Of a DNA stretch of 64,000 nucleotides, positions 56,351 to 63,889 are shown in pieces. How positions within the stretch are numbered: the first letter of the stretch is position 1; the number at the start of each line of letters is the position of its first letter. The DNA lies in the NCBI RefSeq assembly GCF_022213955.1, contig NZ_JAKNTW010000001.1, positions 434,001 to 498,000 of the forward strand, given 5' to 3'. Both the position numbers and the translations under genes were made by a program. Under the pieces are notes generated by a model that did no database searches, had not been told where the DNA came from, and was given only the letters and a program-made list of their open reading frames with translations. This DNA is from Dolomitihabitans soli. Its GTDB lineage: Bacteria > Actinomycetota > Actinomycetes > Streptosporangiales > Streptosporangiaceae.

Positions 56351-58174
56351 ATGAGCAGCACTCCGATCGCAGATCACGCCCTGCTGTCCGACTGCCACTC
56401 CGCCGCGCTCGTCACCTCCGGCGGCTCGGTGGACTGGTTGTGCTTTCCCCGGTTCGACAGTCCGTCGATCTTCGGCCGGCTGCTCGACGACGGTGCGGGG
56501 CACTGGTCGATCCGCCCGGCGGCCGACGGGGAGACCTCCCGGCGCTACCTCGACCACACGCTGGTGCTGGAAACGACCTTCCGGACGGCGACGGGCACCG
56601 TGCTGCTGACCGAGGCGCTGGCCATGGGGCTGGGGAACTCGGGTCACCGGCTCGGCGAGGGCGCCCCGCACCTGCTGCTCCGCTCGCTGACCTGCACGGA
56701 CGGCGAGGTCGACGTCGACGTCGAGTATGTCCCGCGGCCCGAGTACGGCATCGTCATGCCCCTGCTGTCGGAGGTGGAGGGCGGCGTCACCGCGCGTGGC
56801 GGAGCCGAGTGGCTGGTGCTGTCCACGCCCGTCCCGATGACGCTGGACAACTGCGGCGCGCACTGCCGTACGACGCTGAGGGCGGGAGAAGCCGTCGGCT
56901 TCGCTCTGCACCGCTCGACGCTGGAAGCGCTGCCCGCGCGGGTCTGGACGCAGGACGAGATCGCCGCGCTGCTGGCCGCCACCGTGGACGCCTGGCGGTC
57001 GTGGTCGGCGCTGCACCAGAACTACGAGGGGCCATGGCGTGAGCTGGTCCACCACAGCGGGCTGGTGCTGCAGGCGCTCACCTACCAGCCCAGCGGCGCC
57101 ATCGTCGCGGCCGCCACCACGTCGTTGCCCGAGGGGATCGGGGGGATACGCAACTGGGACTACCGTTTCTCCTGGGTGCGCGACGCCAGCTTCACCATGG
57201 AGGCGCTGTGGGTGGCGGCCTGCCCCGACGAGGCCGACCGCTTCTTCGCCTTCATGACCACTGCGGCGGCCAGTTCCATGGCGCGCGGGGAGTCGCTGCA
57301 GATCATGTTCGGCGTCGGCGGCGAGCACGATCTCACCGAACGGGTGCTGCCGCATCTGGCGGGATGGCGGGACAGCCGTCCGGTGCGGGTGGGCAACGGC
57401 GCGTGGAACCAGCGGCAACTGGATGTGTACGGCGAGCTGCTCGGCGCGGCCCATCGCCTGTCCGGCCAGCTCACCTACCTCGACCCGGACCTGCGCGACT
57501 TCCTCGTCGCCCTCGTCGACACCGCCGTGCTGCGCTGGGGGGAGACCGACCACGGCATCTGGGAGGTGCCGGGACGGCGCAGGCACTTCGTGCACTCCAA
57601 GGTCATGTGCTGGGTCGCGCTCGACCGCGGCATCGCCATGGCTGCCCGTCTGGACGCCGACGGCAGGGTCGCCGAGTGGAAGGCGGCGCGGGAGGAGATC
57701 CGGGAGACCGTGCTCCGCGACGGCTGGAACGACACGGTCGGCGCCTTCACCCAGTACTTCGGGTCCGCGGAGATCGACGCGTCCGCCTTGATGATGCCGA
57801 TCGTCGGGTTCCTGCCCGCCGACGACCCCAGGGTGCTGGCCACGATCGACGCCGTCGCCGATCGGCTCACCGACGGGCACGGCCTGGTCCGCCGTTACCG
57901 GAGCGGCGTCGACGGCTTGGCCGGCGAGGAGGGCGCCTTCCTGCTGTGCACCTTCTGGCTCGCGCAGGCGCTGGCCATGTCCGGTCAGCTCGGACGGGCC
58001 CGCGTCGTCTTCGCACGAGCCGCCCGCTTCGTCAACGACGTCGGCCTGCTCGCCGAGGAGGTCGATCCGGTGACCGGCGAGTCGCTCGGCAACGTTCCCC
58101 AGGCGTTCAGCCACATCGGCCTGGTCAACGCCGCCTGGGCGATCGCCGAGGCCGAAGCGTCACCCCGGGCGTGA
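56351..58174 (+). CDS. Glycoside hydrolase family 15 (trehalase/glucoamylase-like)
   Basis: A 607-residue cytoplasmic enzyme. The N terminus (IADHALLSDCHSAALV, VDWLCFPRFDSPSIFGRLLDD) is the beta-sandwich domain typical of bacterial GH15. The (alpha/alpha)6 barrel has GIGGIRNWDYRFSWVRDAS. The two catalytic glutamates are in HGIWEVPG (about residue 404) and LAGEEGAFLLCTFW (about 525). The closest characterised group is mycobacterial GH15 trehalase, so hydrolysis of trehalose to glucose is likely; glucoamylase activity is an alternative. Confidence 0.93.
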   Translation: MSSTPIADHALLSDCHSAALVTSGGSVDWLCFPRFDSPSIFGRLLDDGAGHWSIRPAADGETSRRYLDHTLVLETTFRTATGTVLLTEALAMGLGNSGHRLGEGAPHLLLRSLTCTDGEVDVDVEYVPRPEYGIVMPLLSEVEGGVTARGGAEWLVLSTPVPMTLDNCGAHCRTTLRAGEAVGFALHRSTLEALPARVWTQDEIAALLAATVDAWRSWSALHQNYEGPWRELVHHSGLVLQALTYQPSGAIVAAATTSLPEGIGGIRNWDYRFSWVRDASFTMEALWVAACPDEADRFFAFMTTAAASSMARGESLQIMFGVGGEHDLTERVLPHLAGWRDSRPVRVGNGAWNQRQLDVYGELLGAAHRLSGQLTYLDPDLRDFLVALVDTAVLRWGETDHGIWEVPGRRRHFVHSKVMCWVALDRGIAMAARLDADGRVAEWKAAREEIRETVLRDGWNDTVGAFTQYFGSAEIDASALMMPIVGFLPADDPRVLATIDAVADRLTDGHGLVRRYRSGVDGLAGEEGAFLLCTFWLAQALAMSGQLGRARVVFARAARFVNDVGLLAEEVDPVTGESLGNVPQAFSHIGLVNAAWAIAEAEASPRA

Positions 58175-58247
58175 CGGCACCGCCTGGGTGGTGTGTGAGG
58201 TCCGATGACCGCCGGTGCTCGGGAGCCGTCCGGCCGAGGATCGGCCT

Positions 58248-58721
58248 ATGAGTCATGACATCCGGGCCATCGAGCCCGACGTGGTGGGGTCGCTGCTGAC
58301 GATGGACGACGCTGGGCGGCCGCCGCAGATGGTCGTCGATGACGAGGGGGGCAGTCCGCTGCGTTGCTGCCTGGGCAAGGCACGTCCCGGGGAGCGGATC
58401 GCGCTGGTGACCTATGCGCCGTTGCGGCGCTGGGCGGCGGAGACGCGGGTGGACCCGGGCGCGTACGACGAGCAGGGGCCGATCTTCGTTCACCTGACCG
58501 GCTGCCCGGGGGCGGAGCCCGGCTGGCCCGGGGCGCACACCAGCCACCGGATGCTCCGTGCGTACGCCGCCGACGGCCACATCCTGGGGGGCCGCTATCT
58601 GGCTGAGGGGGCCGACCCCGAGGTGGCGCTGAAGGAGGCGTTCGAGGACGAGGAGGTGGCGGTGGTGCACGTGCGCGCGATCGAGTTCGGCTGTTTCCAG
58701 TTCGAGGTACGGCGCGGCTGA
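58248..58721 (+). CDS. DUF1203 family protein
   Basis: A 157-residue protein with GGSPLRCCLGKARPGERIALVTYAPL, GPIFVHLTGC and the C-terminal EVAVVHVRAIEFGCFQFEVRR, matching the DUF1203 family. Its function is not known. The ATG at 58248 aligns with family members; the GTG upstream at 58215 is unlikely. Downstream it converges with selD. Confidence 0.82.
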   Translation: MSHDIRAIEPDVVGSLLTMDDAGRPPQMVVDDEGGSPLRCCLGKARPGERIALVTYAPLRRWAAETRVDPGAYDEQGPIFVHLTGCPGAEPGWPGAHTSHRMLRAYAADGHILGGRYLAEGADPEVALKEAFEDEEVAVVHVRAIEFGCFQFEVRRG

Positions 58722-58930
58722 GAGCGGGTGTGCCCCACGGCGCGGACCCGTCCGCGGAGGCCGTCGCCGTCGCTGTTCTCGGCGCGGTCCAGCCGGTGGC
58801 CGCGTGGGTTCGCGGGCCGCGACGAGTACGGCATGCTGACCACACCCACCACCGCGCGGTCCGACCGGTGGTCGCTTGGGGTTCGCGGGAGTCCCGGTCC
58901 GGGGCAGTTGGTCGTGTGCGGGGGCCGGGG

Positions 58931-59920
58931 TCAGCGGATTTCGAGGGTGTGGGATCGGCGGGTGACCAGTTCGCCGATCACCGGGGCGCCGGGGATCTCG
59001 CCGGCGAGCAGGAGGCCGCCCGAGGTCTGGGCGTCGGCGAGGAGGAGGAGGGTCTCCTCGTCGGTGTCGCCGGGATCGGTGTGCGGGGCCACCCAGCCGA
59101 GGTTGCGGCGGGAGCCGCCCGGTACGTAGCCCTTGCCGGCGGAGTCGCGGGCCCCCTCGATGAACGGTACGGCCGAGGCGTCGAGCACCGCCGTCACCCC
59201 GGAGGCGCGGGCGAGCTTGTAGAGGTGGCCGAGCAGTCCGAAACCGGTGACGTCGGTGGCGCAGCGCACACCGGCCGCGAGGGCGGCGCGGGAGGCGTCG
59301 GCGTTGAGGCGGGTCATGGTCTCGATCGCCTGAGGGAAGATCTCGCCCGTCGTCTTGTGCCGGTTGTTCAGCACGCCCGAGCCGATCGGTTTGGACAGCG
59401 ACAGCGGCAGCCCGGCCCGGCCGGCGTCGTTGCGCATCAGCCGCGCCGGGTCGGCGGTGCCGGTGACGGCCATGCCGTACACCGGTTCGGGGCCGTGCAC
59501 GCTGTGCCCGCCCGCCAGGTGGCAGCCGGCCTGCCGGGTCACCGCCGCGCCGCCGCGCAGCACCTCCGCCGCGACCTCGTACGGCAGGTCCTCACGTGGC
59601 CAGCACAGCAGGTTGAGCGCGACGATCGGGGCGCCGCCCATCGCGTAGACGTCGGAGAGGGCGTTGGCGGCGGCGATCCGGCCCCAGTCGTAGGGGTCGT
59701 CGACGACGGGGGTGAAGAAGTCGGCGGTGCTGACGATCGCCTGCCCGTCGCCCAGCCGTACGACCGCCGCGTCGTCGCCCGTCTCCAGCCCCACCAGCAG
59801 TTCGCCGTGCGGGTCGACGGGGACGGTGACGCCGAGGCCGGCCAGCACGCCCTCCAACTCGCCCGCCGGGATCTTGCAGGCGCATCCGCCGCCCTGCGCG
59901 TAGTGCGTCAGCCGTCGCAT
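58931..59920 (-). CDS. selD: Selenide, water dikinase (selenophosphate synthetase)
   Basis: A 329-residue SelD that makes selenophosphate from selenide and ATP, the selenium donor for selenocysteine and 2-selenouridine. The catalytic loop is GGGCACKIP (Cys13 in the position of E. coli Cys17, Lys16), followed by GDDAAVVRLGDG, STADFFTPVVDDPYDWG, NALSDVYAMGG, LAGGHSVHGPEP and TSGGLLLAG. The ATG at 59920 is chosen because it begins directly before the active-site loop. It is the last gene of the minus-strand cluster that includes a probable selenoprotein (126-nt gap). No selA, selB or selC is in the window. Confidence 0.96.
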   Translation of the reverse strand: MRRLTHYAQGGGCACKIPAGELEGVLAGLGVTVPVDPHGELLVGLETGDDAAVVRLGDGQAIVSTADFFTPVVDDPYDWGRIAAANALSDVYAMGGAPIVALNLLCWPREDLPYEVAAEVLRGGAAVTRQAGCHLAGGHSVHGPEPVYGMAVTGTADPARLMRNDAGRAGLPLSLSKPIGSGVLNNRHKTTGEIFPQAIETMTRLNADASRAALAAGVRCATDVTGFGLLGHLYKLARASGVTAVLDASAVPFIEGARDSAGKGYVPGGSRRNLGWVAPHTDPGDTDEETLLLLADAQTSGGLLLAGEIPGAPVIGELVTRRSHTLEIR

Positions 59921-60046
59921 GCCCAGACTGTAACCCGCGGCGAACAGATCGTCACGAGCATTGGACGGCCGGTGGGCGGTGCTGCGCGTCGGTGAGTCCG
60001 GCGGGTGGGCGGGCGCGGGCATCGGGTGGGCCCGGCCGGTCGGTCG

Positions 60047-60538
60047 TCACGGGCGGCGGACGAGTTTCTGCCACAGGATTCGCGCGGCGAACGGCAGCGC
60101 GGCCGTCCGGCGTCCCGGTGCGACCAGGGCGGCCCCCCGCCACAGCAACCGCATGCCGTACAGCAGTTCCGTCGCGCCGGTGCCGTCGACCGCGACGGCG
60201 AGCGGCTTGGCGCACGGGGTCGCACCCGACAGCACGGGGAACTCCCCGGCCAGGTGCGGATCCCGGCACGACCTGACGATGACGGGTACGGCCAGCAGCC
60301 CGGCCAGCCGTTCGGCGATCGACGAGCAACCGCCACACGAGCTGTCGTAGACCACCACAAGCCTGGCCGTCGAAGTACCACGCGGGGCCGGGCAAGGGCC
60401 GGAGGGCCGGTGGTGAGAGGCAGCGCGGCGCGGGATGTCCGGCGGAGCGGGTGGCGTGGGGAGAGCTGGGTCGGGTGGGCGGAGCGCAGGTGTGGCCGGG
60501 GGAGGGGGAGACCGGAAGGGGAGGGGGTGGGGGGTCAT
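60047..60538 (-). CDS. Thioredoxin-like protein with CGGC motif
   Basis: 163 residues. The first 55 are Pro-rich and low complexity. A thioredoxin-like strand and redox motif follow, VVVYDSSCGGCSSIAERL (Cys68, Cys71), then a short domain with GATPCAKPLAVAVDGTG (the usual cis-proline region is not obvious). The start ATG at 60538 overlaps the stop of the membrane selenoprotein gene (ATGA). It probably reduces or receives disulfide/selenenylsulfide equivalents from its membrane neighbour (inference). The true N terminus might lie further in. Confidence 0.65.
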   Translation of the reverse strand: MTPHPLPFRSPPPPATPALRPPDPALPTPPAPPDIPRRAASHHRPSGPCPAPRGTSTARLVVVYDSSCGGCSSIAERLAGLLAVPVIVRSCRDPHLAGEFPVLSGATPCAKPLAVAVDGTGATELLYGMRLLWRGAALVAPGRRTAALPFAARILWQKLVRRP

Positions 60539-61260
60539 GGGAGGAGGGCCAGGGTGAGGGCGGTCGCGGTGGCGGTGGCGGTGGCGAGGGCCAGGAAGCG
60601 TTGGTTGGCGTGCCACAGGGTGGTCCAGCTCCCGTCGTCGCTGTGGGCCATGCTGACCGCGGCCATGATCCAGCGCGCCGCCGCGAAACCGGTGCCCGCC
60701 GCCAGCGCCCCGGGCAGCGGTACGGCCAGCACCAGCGCGGCCAGCACCAGGTGGGGCAGGGCGGAGGGGGAGTAGGTGCGCATCCCCGTCCCCATCTCGA
60801 AGCCGAACTGGATGCCGCCCGCCAGCCGTCCCCGGTTGAGCACGTGCTCGGGGACGAGCCGCCGGTTCTCCGGGACGGGCAGCGAGATCAGCCCCGCCTC
60901 ACGGAGCAGTACGGCCGCCGCCAGCAGACCGAGGACCGCCAGCCGCAGCGGGGCGGGGAGCAGGGACTGGACGACGCCGCCCGCCACGGCGGCGACGGCC
61001 GTCACGGTCCACGCACCCAGCAGCAGCCCCGCGCCGAAGCAGGCCAGGGCACCGGAACCGCGCCAGACCGACGCGCTCAGCAGGAACGCCGAGTTGTGGC
61101 TTCAAGTGCTGCCCGAGTTGGCGTATCCGGCGTTGAGCCCGGCCCACAGGAACAGGGCGAGGGCGGGGGCGGACGCGGCGGCGAGCACGGCCACGCCGAG
61201 GACGATCGGCAGGGCGACGCTCACGGGATGCAGGGCGAGCCGGGGCAAGGTAGTGATCAT
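60535..61260 (-). CDS. Probable polytopic membrane selenoprotein (in-frame TGA as selenocysteine, residue 53)
   Basis: Read from the ATG at 61260 to the TGA at 60535, the frame codes for 241 residues with a single in-frame TGA at 61104-61102. The protein on both sides is in the same frame with the same strong third-position G/C bias: a hydrophobic N terminus ([24 protein letters not shown]), then NSGST-U-SHNSAF, then further membrane helices (about five to six in all) ending in [11 protein letters not shown] stop-based reading would leave a 52-residue peptide and a GTG-started remainder (61005) missing the middle. A SECIS-like hairpin follows the TGA and selD is in the cluster, so selenocysteine is the best explanation. 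Size and neighbours recall MauE-type membrane proteins, but sequence similarity is weak. Confidence 0.7.
61059..61075 (-). promoter_or_regulatory. Bacterial SECIS-like hairpin
   Basis: In the mRNA, 26 nt after the UGA, CGCGUC and GGCGCG form a 6-bp stem (one U-G pair) closing a GGUCU loop. Bacterial SECIS elements have a small stem whose apical loop starts with G (GGU), placed about 16-37 nt from the UGA; here the first loop G is 33 nt downstream. The loop matches the GGUCU core of the E. coli fdhF element. A second, GUUCCU-loop hairpin (CUCGGC/GCUGAG) lies nearer the UGA and would stack on it. Confidence 0.65.
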
Positions 61261-61440
61261 GGGCTGGCTGTCGTGACGGCCACGCCGAGGACGATCGGCG
61301 GGGCGATGCTCGTGGTGCGCGGTGTGGTGGTCATGGGCGGTGGTGAGGCGATGCTCATGGTGTGCGGTTCATGGGCGGTGGTGAGGAGATGCTCGTGCCC
61401 GGGGTGGTGGTCATGGGCGGTGGTGAGGCGATGCTCATGG
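61187..61440. repeat. Repeats upstream of and within the selenoprotein gene
   Basis: A 37-bp segment of the gene (ACGGCCACGCCGAGGACG..., 61187-61223) is duplicated upstream at 61276-61312. Three ~30-bp copies of TCATGGGCGGTGGTGAGG follow at 61331-61360, 61369-61398 and 61411-61440. The 251-bp gap between this gene and the Tat-secreted protein gene is largely made of such repeats. It has no other recognisable element. Confidence 0.75.
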
Positions 61441-61511
61441 TGTGTGCGTGTGGTGGTCGTGGGTGGTGCGGTGATGCCCGCAACGTGTGGTGGTCGTGGG
61501 ACGGGCGCTGC

Positions 61512-62078
61512 TCACGGAGTGCGGCGTGATGTTCCCAGGCGGCACATCGCGATGGTGATGTCGGTGTATTCGCTCCCGTCCGTCCAGGTCACGGTGGTGA
61601 CCGCGTCCGAGCAGCGGTAGGTGTTCCCGGCGTTGGACCAGCGCCAGGCGTTCCGGGTGGAGGTCTCGCCGCACGCGGAGTCGATGCGGTAGGCGCTGAA
61701 CATCTCCTCACCGTCGCTGGAGCTCCGCGAGCCCTCGAAATGCCGTTGGTCCTCGTTGCACGGGTAGTCGCCGACGCGCCAGCCGCCGTAGCAGACGGCG
61801 GGGCCCGGTCCCCAGTTCGCCCGCATCTCGGTGTAGCCCTCGGAGTACGCGTCCCGGCAGTTGGGGGCCGTCCACTCGGAGGTGGGGCCGTCGGCGCGGG
61901 CCGCGCGCCTGGAGAACACCCAGTCGAACGGCACGAGCGTCGCCGCGACCGCCGAGACCACGAGCCCTTTCAGCAGCGTACGGCGGGCGACCGGGCTGTC
62001 GCCGATCACGGTGCGCACCCGGCTCGGGACGGCCCCGAGCGGCGGGGCGTCCATCGTGGGAATGGTGTCAGTGAACAC
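61512..62078 (-). CDS. Tat-exported cysteine-rich protein (MauA-like?)
   Basis: 188 residues, GTG start at 62078 with a perfect AAGGAGG at good spacing. A twin-arginine signal (SPVARRTLLKGL, hydrophobic stretch to about residue 50) precedes a Trp/Cys-rich domain with six cysteines (for example PNCRDAY, AVCYGGW, YPCNED, DSACGE, YRCSDA, AMCRL) able to form three disulfides. Length, Tat export and late Trp-Cys-rich segment recall methylamine dehydrogenase light chains, but the cysteine number is lower and I cannot prove a TTQ cofactor. It overlaps the upstream thioredoxin gene by 11 nt. It may be the substrate of the redox proteins in the cluster. Confidence 0.65.
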   Translation of the reverse strand: MFTDTIPTMDAPPLGAVPSRVRTVIGDSPVARRTLLKGLVVSAVAATLVPFDWVFSRRAARADGPTSEWTAPNCRDAYSEGYTEMRANWGPGPAVCYGGWRVGDYPCNEDQRHFEGSRSSSDGEEMFSAYRIDSACGETSTRNAWRWSNAGNTYRCSDAVTTVTWTDGSEYTDITIAMCRLGTSRRTP

Positions 62079-62580
62079 GGGTGCCTCCTTGGGCCGCGGT
62101 GACCGGTAGCCGCAGGACCTCGGCCAGCAGGGCGGGGACGTCGGTGTCCCCGTAGACGTAACGGCGGTCGGCGACCGTGCCCGCCGTGTCGACCACGTAG
62201 ACGCACGGCGTGTAGCCCTCGTACAGGTTCCGCCACAGGTCGGGGTCGGCCAGCGTGGTCCCGCCGCCGAACCGGGAGGCGGTCCGCTCGTCGGGGAGCA
62301 GCCCGATCACCCGGATACCGGCGAGATCGGGGGCGGCCTCCCACAGGGTGTGGCAGGTCGAGCAGGTGCCGTCCATCAGGAGGATCAGCGAGTGGGACTG
62401 GCCGGGGCCCGGCCACAGCGCGGGCGGCACCTGACGGGCGAGATCTTCCAGCCGGGCGCTCGACGGGTTCAGCGCTGTGTGCTCCAGTTTGCGCAACCGG
62501 GCGTAGACGGCGCCGATGGCCAGCACGGCGAAGCCCGATACGAGTACGGCGAGCAGCGAGACGGAGACGGAGAGGTTCAT
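62068..62580 (-). CDS. Membrane-anchored MauD/TlpA-like thioredoxin
   Basis: 170 residues. An N-terminal transmembrane helix (LAVLVSGFAVLAIGAVYARL) and a thioredoxin-fold domain with the motif CSTC (Cys73/Cys76 in MDGTCSTCHTLWE) and the cis-proline region EGYTPCVYVVDTAG. MauD proteins of this type handle disulfides during maturation of methylamine dehydrogenase. The ATG at 62580 overlaps the stop of the preceding gene (ATGA); an ATG at 62589 is possible. Immediately upstream of the six-cysteine secreted protein, its likely client. Confidence 0.8.
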   Translation of the reverse strand: MNLSVSVSLLAVLVSGFAVLAIGAVYARLRKLEHTALNPSSARLEDLARQVPPALWPGPGQSHSLILLMDGTCSTCHTLWEAAPDLAGIRVIGLLPDERTASRFGGGTTLADPDLWRNLYEGYTPCVYVVDTAGTVADRRYVYGDTDVPALLAEVLRLPVTAAQGGTRVH

Positions 62581-63311
62581 GAATCCCATTCGACTTTCAG
62601 CCCTGCCATCACGGCGGTGACGCGGTCACGTTCCTTCTTGTTCCAGAACTCCGCGGAGTCGAGCCGTTGCGGGAAGGCGATGGTGAAGATGCTGGTGGGG
62701 CTCGCGTAGATGTAGCGCCATTCGAGTGGGGTGCCGGCGAGCGCGTCGCGTTGCTTCGGGTCGAGGTCCAGGCGTTCCTTCCAGACCTCCGAGTTGCCGA
62801 TGACCGCGCCCTGCCAGTTCGGCAGGGCGTCGCGGCCGGCTCGCGCGTCCTTGGCCATGAGGAGGAACTCGTGACCGATGCCCAGGACCACCGTGCCGTA
62901 CTGCTGGACGCCCACCGGATTGCGCGGGGTCAGCTGGGCGCCATCCGCGGAGTCGGTGAACGTCACCGACGTCACGAGGCTGTTGAGCACGGCCGGTTTG
63001 GGCACGGGGCCGCCGAACCAGGTGGTCGCCTCGTTGTACGGGCCGGCCCAGATGAGACAGCTGTTGGAGCGGTCGGCGGCCTCGTAGAGGATCAGGTCGA
63101 ACCCCATCCGGCGGTAGGTCTTCCCGCTGCCTCCGGGGAAGATCTTCGTGGGGATCGCCCGGTGCCTTCCGGCGGGCGCGATGCTGTAGTTGCGTGCAGG
63201 TCCCTGCCCGGCGAGCCGGGTATGGCCGTGCCACGCCACCGCGCCCGCCTCCTCCGGCAGGTTTATCCGCACCCGCGCCCCGTCGGCGGAGATGCGCTCG
63301 GTCTGAATCAT
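62577..63311 (-). CDS. Unknown 244-residue protein, first gene of the mau-like cluster
   Basis: No signal peptide or membrane helix is visible. The sequence looks like a soluble beta-rich protein (RVRINLPEEAGAVAWHGHTRL, YSIAPAGRHRAIPTKIF, YIYASPTSIFTIAFP). I do not recognise a family. It overlaps the MauD-like gene by 4 nt and so is translated with it. It could be an accessory or catalytic subunit of the system. Confidence 0.7.
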   Translation of the reverse strand: MIQTERISADGARVRINLPEEAGAVAWHGHTRLAGQGPARNYSIAPAGRHRAIPTKIFPGGSGKTYRRMGFDLILYEAADRSNSCLIWAGPYNEATTWFGGPVPKPAVLNSLVTSVTFTDSADGAQLTPRNPVGVQQYGTVVLGIGHEFLLMAKDARAGRDALPNWQGAVIGNSEVWKERLDLDPKQRDALAGTPLEWRYIYASPTSIFTIAFPQRLDSAEFWNKKERDRVTAVMAGLKVEWDS

Positions 63312-63568
63312 GCGTCCAACCCGGATCGACTGGGGATCATGGCCCGAGTCAGCCTAAAAGGTCGATCGCCTCGTCAGCGCCGTTGGACACGGCCGTCTGG
63401 TAAAGGATTGGCGCAGGTCAGGCCATGGGACGGACGCTCAGCAGGTGCGGTCCTGGATGCGGCGGCGATGGAAGGCGAGAGCGGCCCCGGCCGACGCGGC
63501 GGTCCGTTCGTCCGCAGTGAGGCTACGGCCGACGAAGGACCGGGGCCGGACGCGTTCGCCATGCCGGA

Positions 63569-63889
63569 TCACAGGTAGAGGCCGGTCCCGTGGTCGGTCT
63601 GCTGGGTGGCCACGGCGTGCAGATCGCGTTCGCGCATGACCAGGTAGAGCTGGCCGTGCACCTCGACCTCGTACTGCTCCTCGGGGTTGAACAGCACCTT
63701 GTCGCCGACCTTGACCGCGCGCGCGTTGCCGCCGACGCCGCACACCTCGCCCCACACGAGCCGGTTGGCCATCTTCACGGTGGCGGGGATGACGATGCCG
63801 GCGGTGCTGCGCCGCTCCTCCGTCTCGTGCTCCACCTTGATCATCACGCGGTCGTGCAGCATCTGGATCTCGAACTTGGGGTCAGCCAC
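63569..63889 (-). CDS. GroES-like (Cpn10-related) protein
   Basis: 106 residues with the GroES fold signature: MLHDRVMIKVEHETEERRSTAGIVIPATVKMANRLVWGEVCGVGG, then VKVGDKVLFNPEEQYEVEVHGQLYLVMRERDLHAV. It keeps the mobile-loop region and roof but has a divergent C terminus. No groEL is next to it, so it is probably an auxiliary co-chaperonin-like protein of actinobacteria rather than the main GroES. Confidence 0.85.
   Translation of the reverse strand: MADPKFEIQMLHDRVMIKVEHETEERRSTAGIVIPATVKMANRLVWGEVCGVGGNARAVKVGDKVLFNPEEQYEVEVHGQLYLVMRERDLHAVATQQTDHGTGLYL

Follow-up and report, generated by a model that had tools for sequence, protein, structure and literature searches.

Introduction

In Paracoccus, mauF is required for methylamine dehydrogenase (MADH). 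MauD and MauE act on disulfides, and together with MauF they are thought to serve the disulfides of the small subunit of that enzyme, MauA. The genes stand in the order mauFBEDACJGMN (excerpt of PMC4543880), and in an excerpt of a further paper MauF is an accessory protein, and its absence is offered as a possible reason for a lack of growth on methylamine (PMC2474590).

A preliminary description of the locus studied here proposed a polytopic membrane selenoprotein of a new family. YeeE/YedE, SaoP and the SO_0444 efflux transporter, which we take to be multi-pass proteins, bear on that proposal. An excerpt of a catalogue from 2026, which covers 119 families and subfamilies of selenoproteins in prokaryotes, already includes these three as membrane transporters containing selenocysteine (Sec), and in this respect the proposal goes too far; the table in that excerpt has no MauF and no motif resembling SGSxUSxNS or WSPUG, and for the MauF-like family as such the proposal stands (PMC13188914). 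Excerpts of PMC12013277 and PMC9312934 lack the terms looked for, and in an excerpt of PMC1242214 the single mention of Streptomyces concerns a SelW-like entry. Judged from titles, a literature search brought up no paper that we recognised as joining MauF with selenium.

Here we analyse a 64,000-nucleotide stretch of the genome of Dolomitihabitans soli (the window). On comparative sequence evidence, it very probably carries a member of a new and widespread selenoprotein family, the selenocysteine form of MauF.

Results

A reading frame with a single internal UGA codon

The features of the locus are collected in Table 1. As first described, one minus-strand frame runs from 61260 to 60535, interrupted only by a TGA at codon 53 (61104-61102) and closed by a TGA stop. 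The third-position G/C bias claimed for both sides of the internal TGA is indeed there, with a GC3 of 0.92 on its 5' side and 0.94 on its 3' side. Standard gene calling recovers only a 156-aa ORF that starts at GTG 61005, and so loses the first 85 residues of the selenoprotein frame, as had been foreseen. The ATG at 61260 matches the starts of relatives, in which the UGA lies about 52 codons downstream of the start; no ribosome-binding site was apparent upstream of it in a simple check for motifs. Helices in a structure model of middling confidence, together with hydropathy, lead to the prediction that the protein is multi-pass.

Table 1 Features of the locus in window coordinates
Feature	Position	Strand	Remarks
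selD, selenide water dikinase (Cys type)	58931..60022	(-)	TIGR00476, 382 bits (cut-off 125)
Small thioredoxin-like protein, CGGC motif	60047..60616	(-)	Start uncertain; beside the selenoprotein in 17/76 loci
Putative MauF-family selenoprotein gene	60535..61260	(-)	241 aa, Sec predicted at 53; predicted polytopic membrane protein
SECIS hairpin (predicted)	61059..61075	(-)	6-bp stem, 5-nt loop GGUCU, loop 32 nt 3' of UGA, -8.0 kcal/mol
UGA codon, putative Sec53	61102..61104	(-)	Aligned with invariant Cys79 of Paracoccus MauF
TatCys, Tat-signal Cys-rich exported protein	61512..62078	(-)	In MauA's place; invariant 5 Cys, WxW and Asp
MauD-like thioredoxin-fold protein	62068..62589	(-)	N-terminal hydrophobic segment, CSTC
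o244, first cassette gene	62577..63311	(-)	Family unknown; in 75/76 loci (iterated profile search)

The UGA codon and both of its flanks are conserved

Homologues were sought in 297 genomes of the family to which the window belongs, its own genome counted. Ninety-five homologous places were found, in 81 of these genomes, among them named Planomonospora, Nonomuraea, Sphaerisporangium, Actinomadura and Plantactinospora. Exactly one in-frame TGA is present in 93 of the 95; the remaining two are partial matches, one starting 3' of the Sec site and the other weak (E 2.4e-4). A nonsense mutation or a base-call error, the alternatives first considered, are excluded because the same TGA recurs in 93 of 95 homologous places.

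Seventy-six loci were aligned, some genomes being present twice, from two collections (several of L039-L045 versus L010-L016). The TGA falls in one alignment column in 75 of them. The exception, L092 (genome G251), has a degraded N-terminal half and has lost the Sec site, and an intact copy lies elsewhere in the same genome. For residue conservation we used the 61 of 76 loci that remained after near-copies and cut or odd rows were excluded (alignment A3). In the 5' part or near the site the invariant residues of these 61 rows include G45, S49, G50, S51, Sec53, N56, S57, L61 and R67; far 3' of the TGA they include R134, P137, F152, G153, E155, G157, T158, G159, R161 and T162. Residues are therefore kept on both sides of the TGA, one of the checks that had been proposed, and a second, that homologues carry Cys or TGA at residue 53, also holds. 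A single Cys/Sec residue is invariant in the family.

Twelve of the 81 genomes (G286, G230, G268, G095, G245 and others) have several matches to the selenoprotein, four in G286 and two in each of the rest. Plasmid records gave no further match, and the public record of Nonomuraea gerenzanensis holds 10 features in total, none of which lies within the homologous stretch.

A conserved SECIS hairpin follows the UGA codon

The stem of the predicted hairpin begins at position 29 counted from the start of the UGA, and its six base pairs close a five-base loop. An excerpt of the 2026 catalogue gives the bSECIS rules as a loop of 3-9 nt with G in its first two positions, a stem of 4-16 bp, a loop 16-37 nt after the UGA and an MFE of at most -7.5 (PMC13188914), and the window hairpin lies within all four of these limits.

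Of 51 distinct sequences, 50 can form all six pairs (305 of 306 cells), compared with none of the 51 when the pairing partner is slid by 1-3 bases. In 500 synonymous recodings the number that can do so averaged 5.6 and never exceeded 13. When the same comparison was made at other codon offsets within 420 bases, the best alternative reached 10 of 75, versus 74 of 75 at the true site. GGU is found in the loop of 51/51 sequences, against a mean of 22.7 in the recodings. Compensatory changes were observed at columns 30/44, where the pair is G-C in 14 sequences, U-A in 10 and U-G in 27, and where the third base of an Arg codon tracks its pairing partner. Within the family the loop reads GGUCU, GGUCC or AGGUU, its GGU overlying either a Val codon GTC (37 sequences) or, in another register, a Gly codon GGT (14 sequences); GTC is used for the loop Val in 37/37 cases as opposed to 551 of 1300 Val codons in gene bodies. 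The genome's own fdhA has a hairpin with an identical GGUCU loop 18 nt 3' of its UGA, and the loop of E. coli fdhF likewise contains GGUCU. We regard this as strong computational evidence for a predicted decoding of the UGA as Sec via the SECIS hairpin.

The genome encodes a selenocysteine system

The genome of the window (10.8 Mb, 81 contigs) was searched for selenocysteine genes, as had been suggested, and all those sought were found: tRNA-Sec (C66:27025-27116; 79 bits, cut-off 47), selA at about 240 bases from it (331 bits), selD (Table 1), and a SelB-like gene (C14:70127-71911) recognised as a two-piece match within one 620-aa frame, with 233.8 and 21.2 bits, each below the cut-off of 242.25. 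Near the SelB-like gene lies a gene for formate dehydrogenase alpha (FdhA) with one in-frame TGA (897 bits including neighbours). With tRNA-Sec, selA, selD, a SelB-like gene and a UGA-containing fdhA all present, the genome therefore very probably makes selenoproteins.

Across the family, a strong SelA match is present in 81/81 genomes that have the gene versus 98/216 that do not (Fisher p 1.4e-22, kinship not corrected). For this count, 15 of the 194 genomes with a SelA match had weak E-values and were scored as SelA-absent. In several genomes, for example G140, G095, G086 and G162, selA lies within 10 kb of the gene. Counting the window, selD adjoins the gene at 6 of 76 loci, most flanks being short.

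Remote members exchange selenocysteine for cysteine

A profile search of 396 Actinomycetota genomes gave matches in 37, the window's own included. Loci were obtained for 29 of the 36 others (L095-L123), and the site is readable in all of these except L095 and L104, i.e. in 27, the residue of L108 being read by eye; the 7 further matched genomes gave no locus, and SelA is present in 6 of them and absent in G583, which is 61% complete. Alignment A8 comprises 22 of 26 remote rows, and alignment A10 33 of 34 picked rows. These remote members are about 200 aa long and mostly read W-S-P-(U/C)-G at the site, which is TGA (Sec) in 23 genomes and Cys in 4. SelA was found in 23/23 of the remote Sec genomes as well as in the window's genome, and in 0/4 of the Cys genomes (Fisher on 24 and 4, p 4.9e-5, kinship not corrected). 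This split, Sec with SelA and Cys without it, is the clearest evidence from sequence comparison that the codon would mean Sec. By all the computational tests taken together, codon 53 is almost certainly a selenocysteine codon and the gene almost certainly a selenoprotein gene, as predicted from its sequence and that of its relatives.

In the remote Sec genes, GGT lies in the expected stretch in 17/22 and outside it in 5/22, and RNAalifold gave no joint SECIS fold across the 22.

Upstream in the Cys-type loci L111 and L120, PF07291 detects a MauE domain (E 7.6e-19 and 1.9e-15), and there is a MauD likeness (TIGR02661, 1.5e-12 and 2.6e-7, below its cut-off). Near the other two Cys-type loci no mau gene was seen within the viewed 1.5-kb flanks, those of L097 having their ORFs only listed; the flank of L102 encodes an LGFP-repeat Tat protein. 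In both L111 (511-2136) and L120 (1477-2907), from genomes without SelA, the Cys-type MauF homologue extends into a long C-terminal part. That of L111 gives weak beta-propeller matches (Gmad1, E 0.0025; TolB, 0.0096), recalling the propeller large subunit of methylamine dehydrogenase, and that of L120 gives none. At L116, L117, L120, L122 and L123 a Cys-rich protein that is exported by Tat and has CC and DCC motifs is encoded upstream of the MauF homologue and, by eye, looks more like MauA than does that of the window. The L120 protein has a TIGR02659 match (E 0.019), which lies over its signal.

The selenoprotein family is related to MauF

Three MauF proteins from annotated mau and related clusters, which share STWSPCGYSS with a single invariant cysteine, were used as reference. 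No Pfam or NCBIfam model matched any of the three. The selenoprotein found no fitting model in Pfam or NCBIfam 20.0 either, the best E among 61 members being 0.01 (Pfam) and 0.012 (NCBIfam, an efflux model matched by six members), and the NCBIfam 20.0 selenoprotein models were matched at E 0.1 by none of the 61 window-type or 22 remote members.

Profile comparisons, in which Sec was entered as Cys, which may favour alignment at that column, gave a different picture. By hhalign, the window clade matches MauF at 97.1% (E 7.7e-11, 159 columns) with Sec53 on Cys79; the remote clade matches MauF at 99.8% (E 2e-27); and the two clades match each other at 99.4% (E 2.9e-21), in an alignment that lies only 3' of the site. 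MauE, a membrane protein of the same clusters, served as negative control and gave 0.9% and 0.1%. That the protein is a MauF homologue is, on these profiles, hardly in doubt. Together, profile alignment and Cys/Sec exchange in relatives show the predicted Sec53 to occupy the place of MauF's single conserved cysteine.

Searched against Pfam at E up to 0.1, the remote clade matches DsbD_2 in 11/22 members (best 3.1e-6) and DsbD_TM in 3/22 (best 3.9e-6), as against 0/61 in the window clade for DsbD-type models. The remote clade also aligns with the genome's CcdA at the first SPC (hhalign 74%, E 2.7e-5); the direct CcdA match is 0.1% for the window clade and 2.2% for MauF. These profile matches indicate that the remote clade distantly resembles transmembrane domains of the DsbD type. 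The family is nevertheless not to be filed under DsbD/CcdA, because the second cysteine is absent and the window clade and MauF have no direct CcdA match.

Since searches with the structure model of the selenoprotein (pLDDT 70) gave no significant match in Foldseek and only a low Z in another structure comparison (5.7 at best among the 50 best rows), we claim no fold. CcdA does not figure in these 50 rows, a point to which we attach no weight. A sequence search of the PDB gave nothing for A3, and the matches for A2 and A8 (E 2.9; 0.094, to glyceraldehyde-3-phosphate dehydrogenase) were taken as chance.

The gene is part of a conserved cassette

In the window the gene order is o244, MauD-like, TatCys and, last, the selenoprotein, the first three overlapping by 13 and 11 bases when first start codons are taken. 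An iterated profile search found the o244, MauD-like and TatCys partners in 75, 75 and 74 of 76 loci, respectively; in L072 the Tat gene is 1.6 kb away.

o244 has no Pfam or NCBIfam match, and its identification as MauB, the beta-propeller large subunit of MADH, was rejected (profile comparison 0.2%). The MauD-like family matches MauD by hhalign (98.2%, E 2.7e-14). In the window's own genome, the MauD profile matched eight other places (E 0.01) and not the window's gene; because the profile misses this copy, "MauD-like" refers to family likeness at the profile level. In TatCys, C74, C96, C107, W145, W147, C156, D158 and C179 are invariant over 34 rows. Its mature domain did not align with MauA, the aligned part being the Tat signal (67%), and its structure model was useless (pLDDT 40.6). 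At 23 of 74 loci the TatCys stop shares bases with a start-like word, [AG]TGA. A 38-bp tandem repeat of 3.2 copies (61321-61444) lies between the TatCys and selenoprotein genes of the window, and the distance from the TatCys stop to the UGA is 407 nt there, the median over 74 loci being 161.

In 13/13 Sec clusters inspected, the MauD-like gene is preceded by an additional gene that has a CGC motif and by eye resembles MauE. On the other side, the CGGC thioredoxin-like protein is encoded between the selenoprotein gene and selD, and has conserved Cys also at 117 and 135. A scan of ten proteins or ORFs in 56351-63889 gave no match to any model for MADH, cupredoxins or MauG.

Discussion

Taking identity and role jointly, the explanation that we consider best, and probably correct on the evidence of sequence and gene neighbourhood, is the following. 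At UGA 53 the SelA/B/C/D system of this genome would insert Sec, guided by the SECIS hairpin. The resulting protein would act as a membrane redox partner with a single selenol; it would distantly resemble the DsbD/CcdA transmembrane part, with only the first of the two cysteines of that part kept. Sec53 would form a transient selenenyl-sulfide with the neighbouring MauD-like protein, at its CxxC, and reducing (or oxidising) equivalents would thereby be passed through the membrane or inside it. In turn, the MauD-like protein would set disulfides in TatCys, the Tat-exported Cys-rich WxW protein, in the way that MauD, MauE and MauF may do for MauA. For the role on its own, i.e. a redox partner that works with the MauD-like protein to mature the exported protein, homology and neighbours incline us towards this reading by a little.

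A MauF homologue could also use its Sec as a metal ligand or as a peroxide-reducing centre rather than in disulfide exchange. The one invariant chalcogen residue, which by itself makes no intramolecular disulfide, would suit such a use, but 75 of 76 loci include a gene for the CxxC partner, and some remote members have matches to DsbD-type models. We consider this reading possible, though improbable.

A bolder extension of the redox-partner reading is that the cassette serves the selenium-dependent maturation of an exported enzyme with a new tryptophan-derived quinone-like cofactor and no MADH large subunit, which we hold to be unlikely. TatCys might in that case carry the cofactor with its WxW, Asp and disulfides, and the Sec-containing MauF and the MauD-like protein might help to make it, a division of labour that is just as speculative. 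So too is the suggestion of a DsbD-like carrier with one chalcogen, in which Sec would be the redox centre within the membrane.

We also weighed whether the protein is a YeeE/YedE-type importer of a selenium or sulfur compound feeding the adjacent SelD, an idea that arose from resemblance by eye and from the adjoining selD. One of 61 members has a weak match (E 0.018) to DUF6691, which is presumably YeeE-related. YeeE/YedE selenoproteins exist (excerpt of PMC13188914), and selD does lie downstream in the window. Against this, PF04143 is matched neither by the members nor anywhere in the window's own genome, the match to MauF is strong, and the conserved neighbours are the MauD-like and Tat Cys-rich genes, selD being beside the gene in 6 of 76 loci. 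The idea was dropped on the absence of PF04143 from the genome and on the MauF result, and an importer now appears very unlikely.

It is less likely still, to the point of being negligible, that suppression or a changed code makes the UGA an ordinary amino acid, a reading for which we found no support: the window gene and many homologues terminate in TGA, remote relatives in SelA-less genomes have Cys, and the SECIS loop is common to fdhA. That the TGA is a true stop, whether through nonsense mutation, sequencing error or the presence of two genes, with a product from GTG 61005 only, would accord with what standard calling yields, but has practically no chance of being right given that 93 of 95 places share this TGA, that flanks and SECIS are conserved, and that 81/81 genomes have SelA.

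The preferred reading, a Sec form of MauF acting as redox partner, would have several consequences. It adds a widespread family (81/297 genomes of the family; 37/396 of the phylum when the window's genome and those with Cys forms are counted) whose members are cut short by standard gene calling. For MauF it provides a hypothesis for the catalytic residue, the invariant cysteine being Sec where SelA is present and Cys where it is not, among the members read. For actinomycetes it offers a possible reason beyond formate dehydrogenase for keeping a Sec system, and it raises a testable question, namely which exported Cys/Trp-containing protein requires a selenium membrane partner.

Among known systems, YeeE/YedE (PF04143, GUxSG) is alike in being a membrane transporter family with one Sec (excerpt of PMC13188914), whereas the window family has no PF04143 match and its motif is not GUxSG. 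TsoA/TsoB/TsoC/TsoX/TsoY and Sao are likewise selenoproteins within multi-gene clusters, but their motifs differ from that of the window family (same excerpt, PMC13188914). With DsbD/CcdA (PF02683, PF13386) the remote Sec/Cys members align at the SPC motif of CcdA; those proteins have two intramembrane cysteines, whereas the selenoprotein family lacks the second and keeps one invariant Cys/Sec. MauF of Paracoccus denitrificans (mauFBEDACJG) differs in having Cys, within STWSPCGYSS, where the window protein would have Sec, within SGSxUSxNS, and the likeness extends to the neighbourhood, MauD-like and Tat-exported Cys-rich genes adjoining the window gene.
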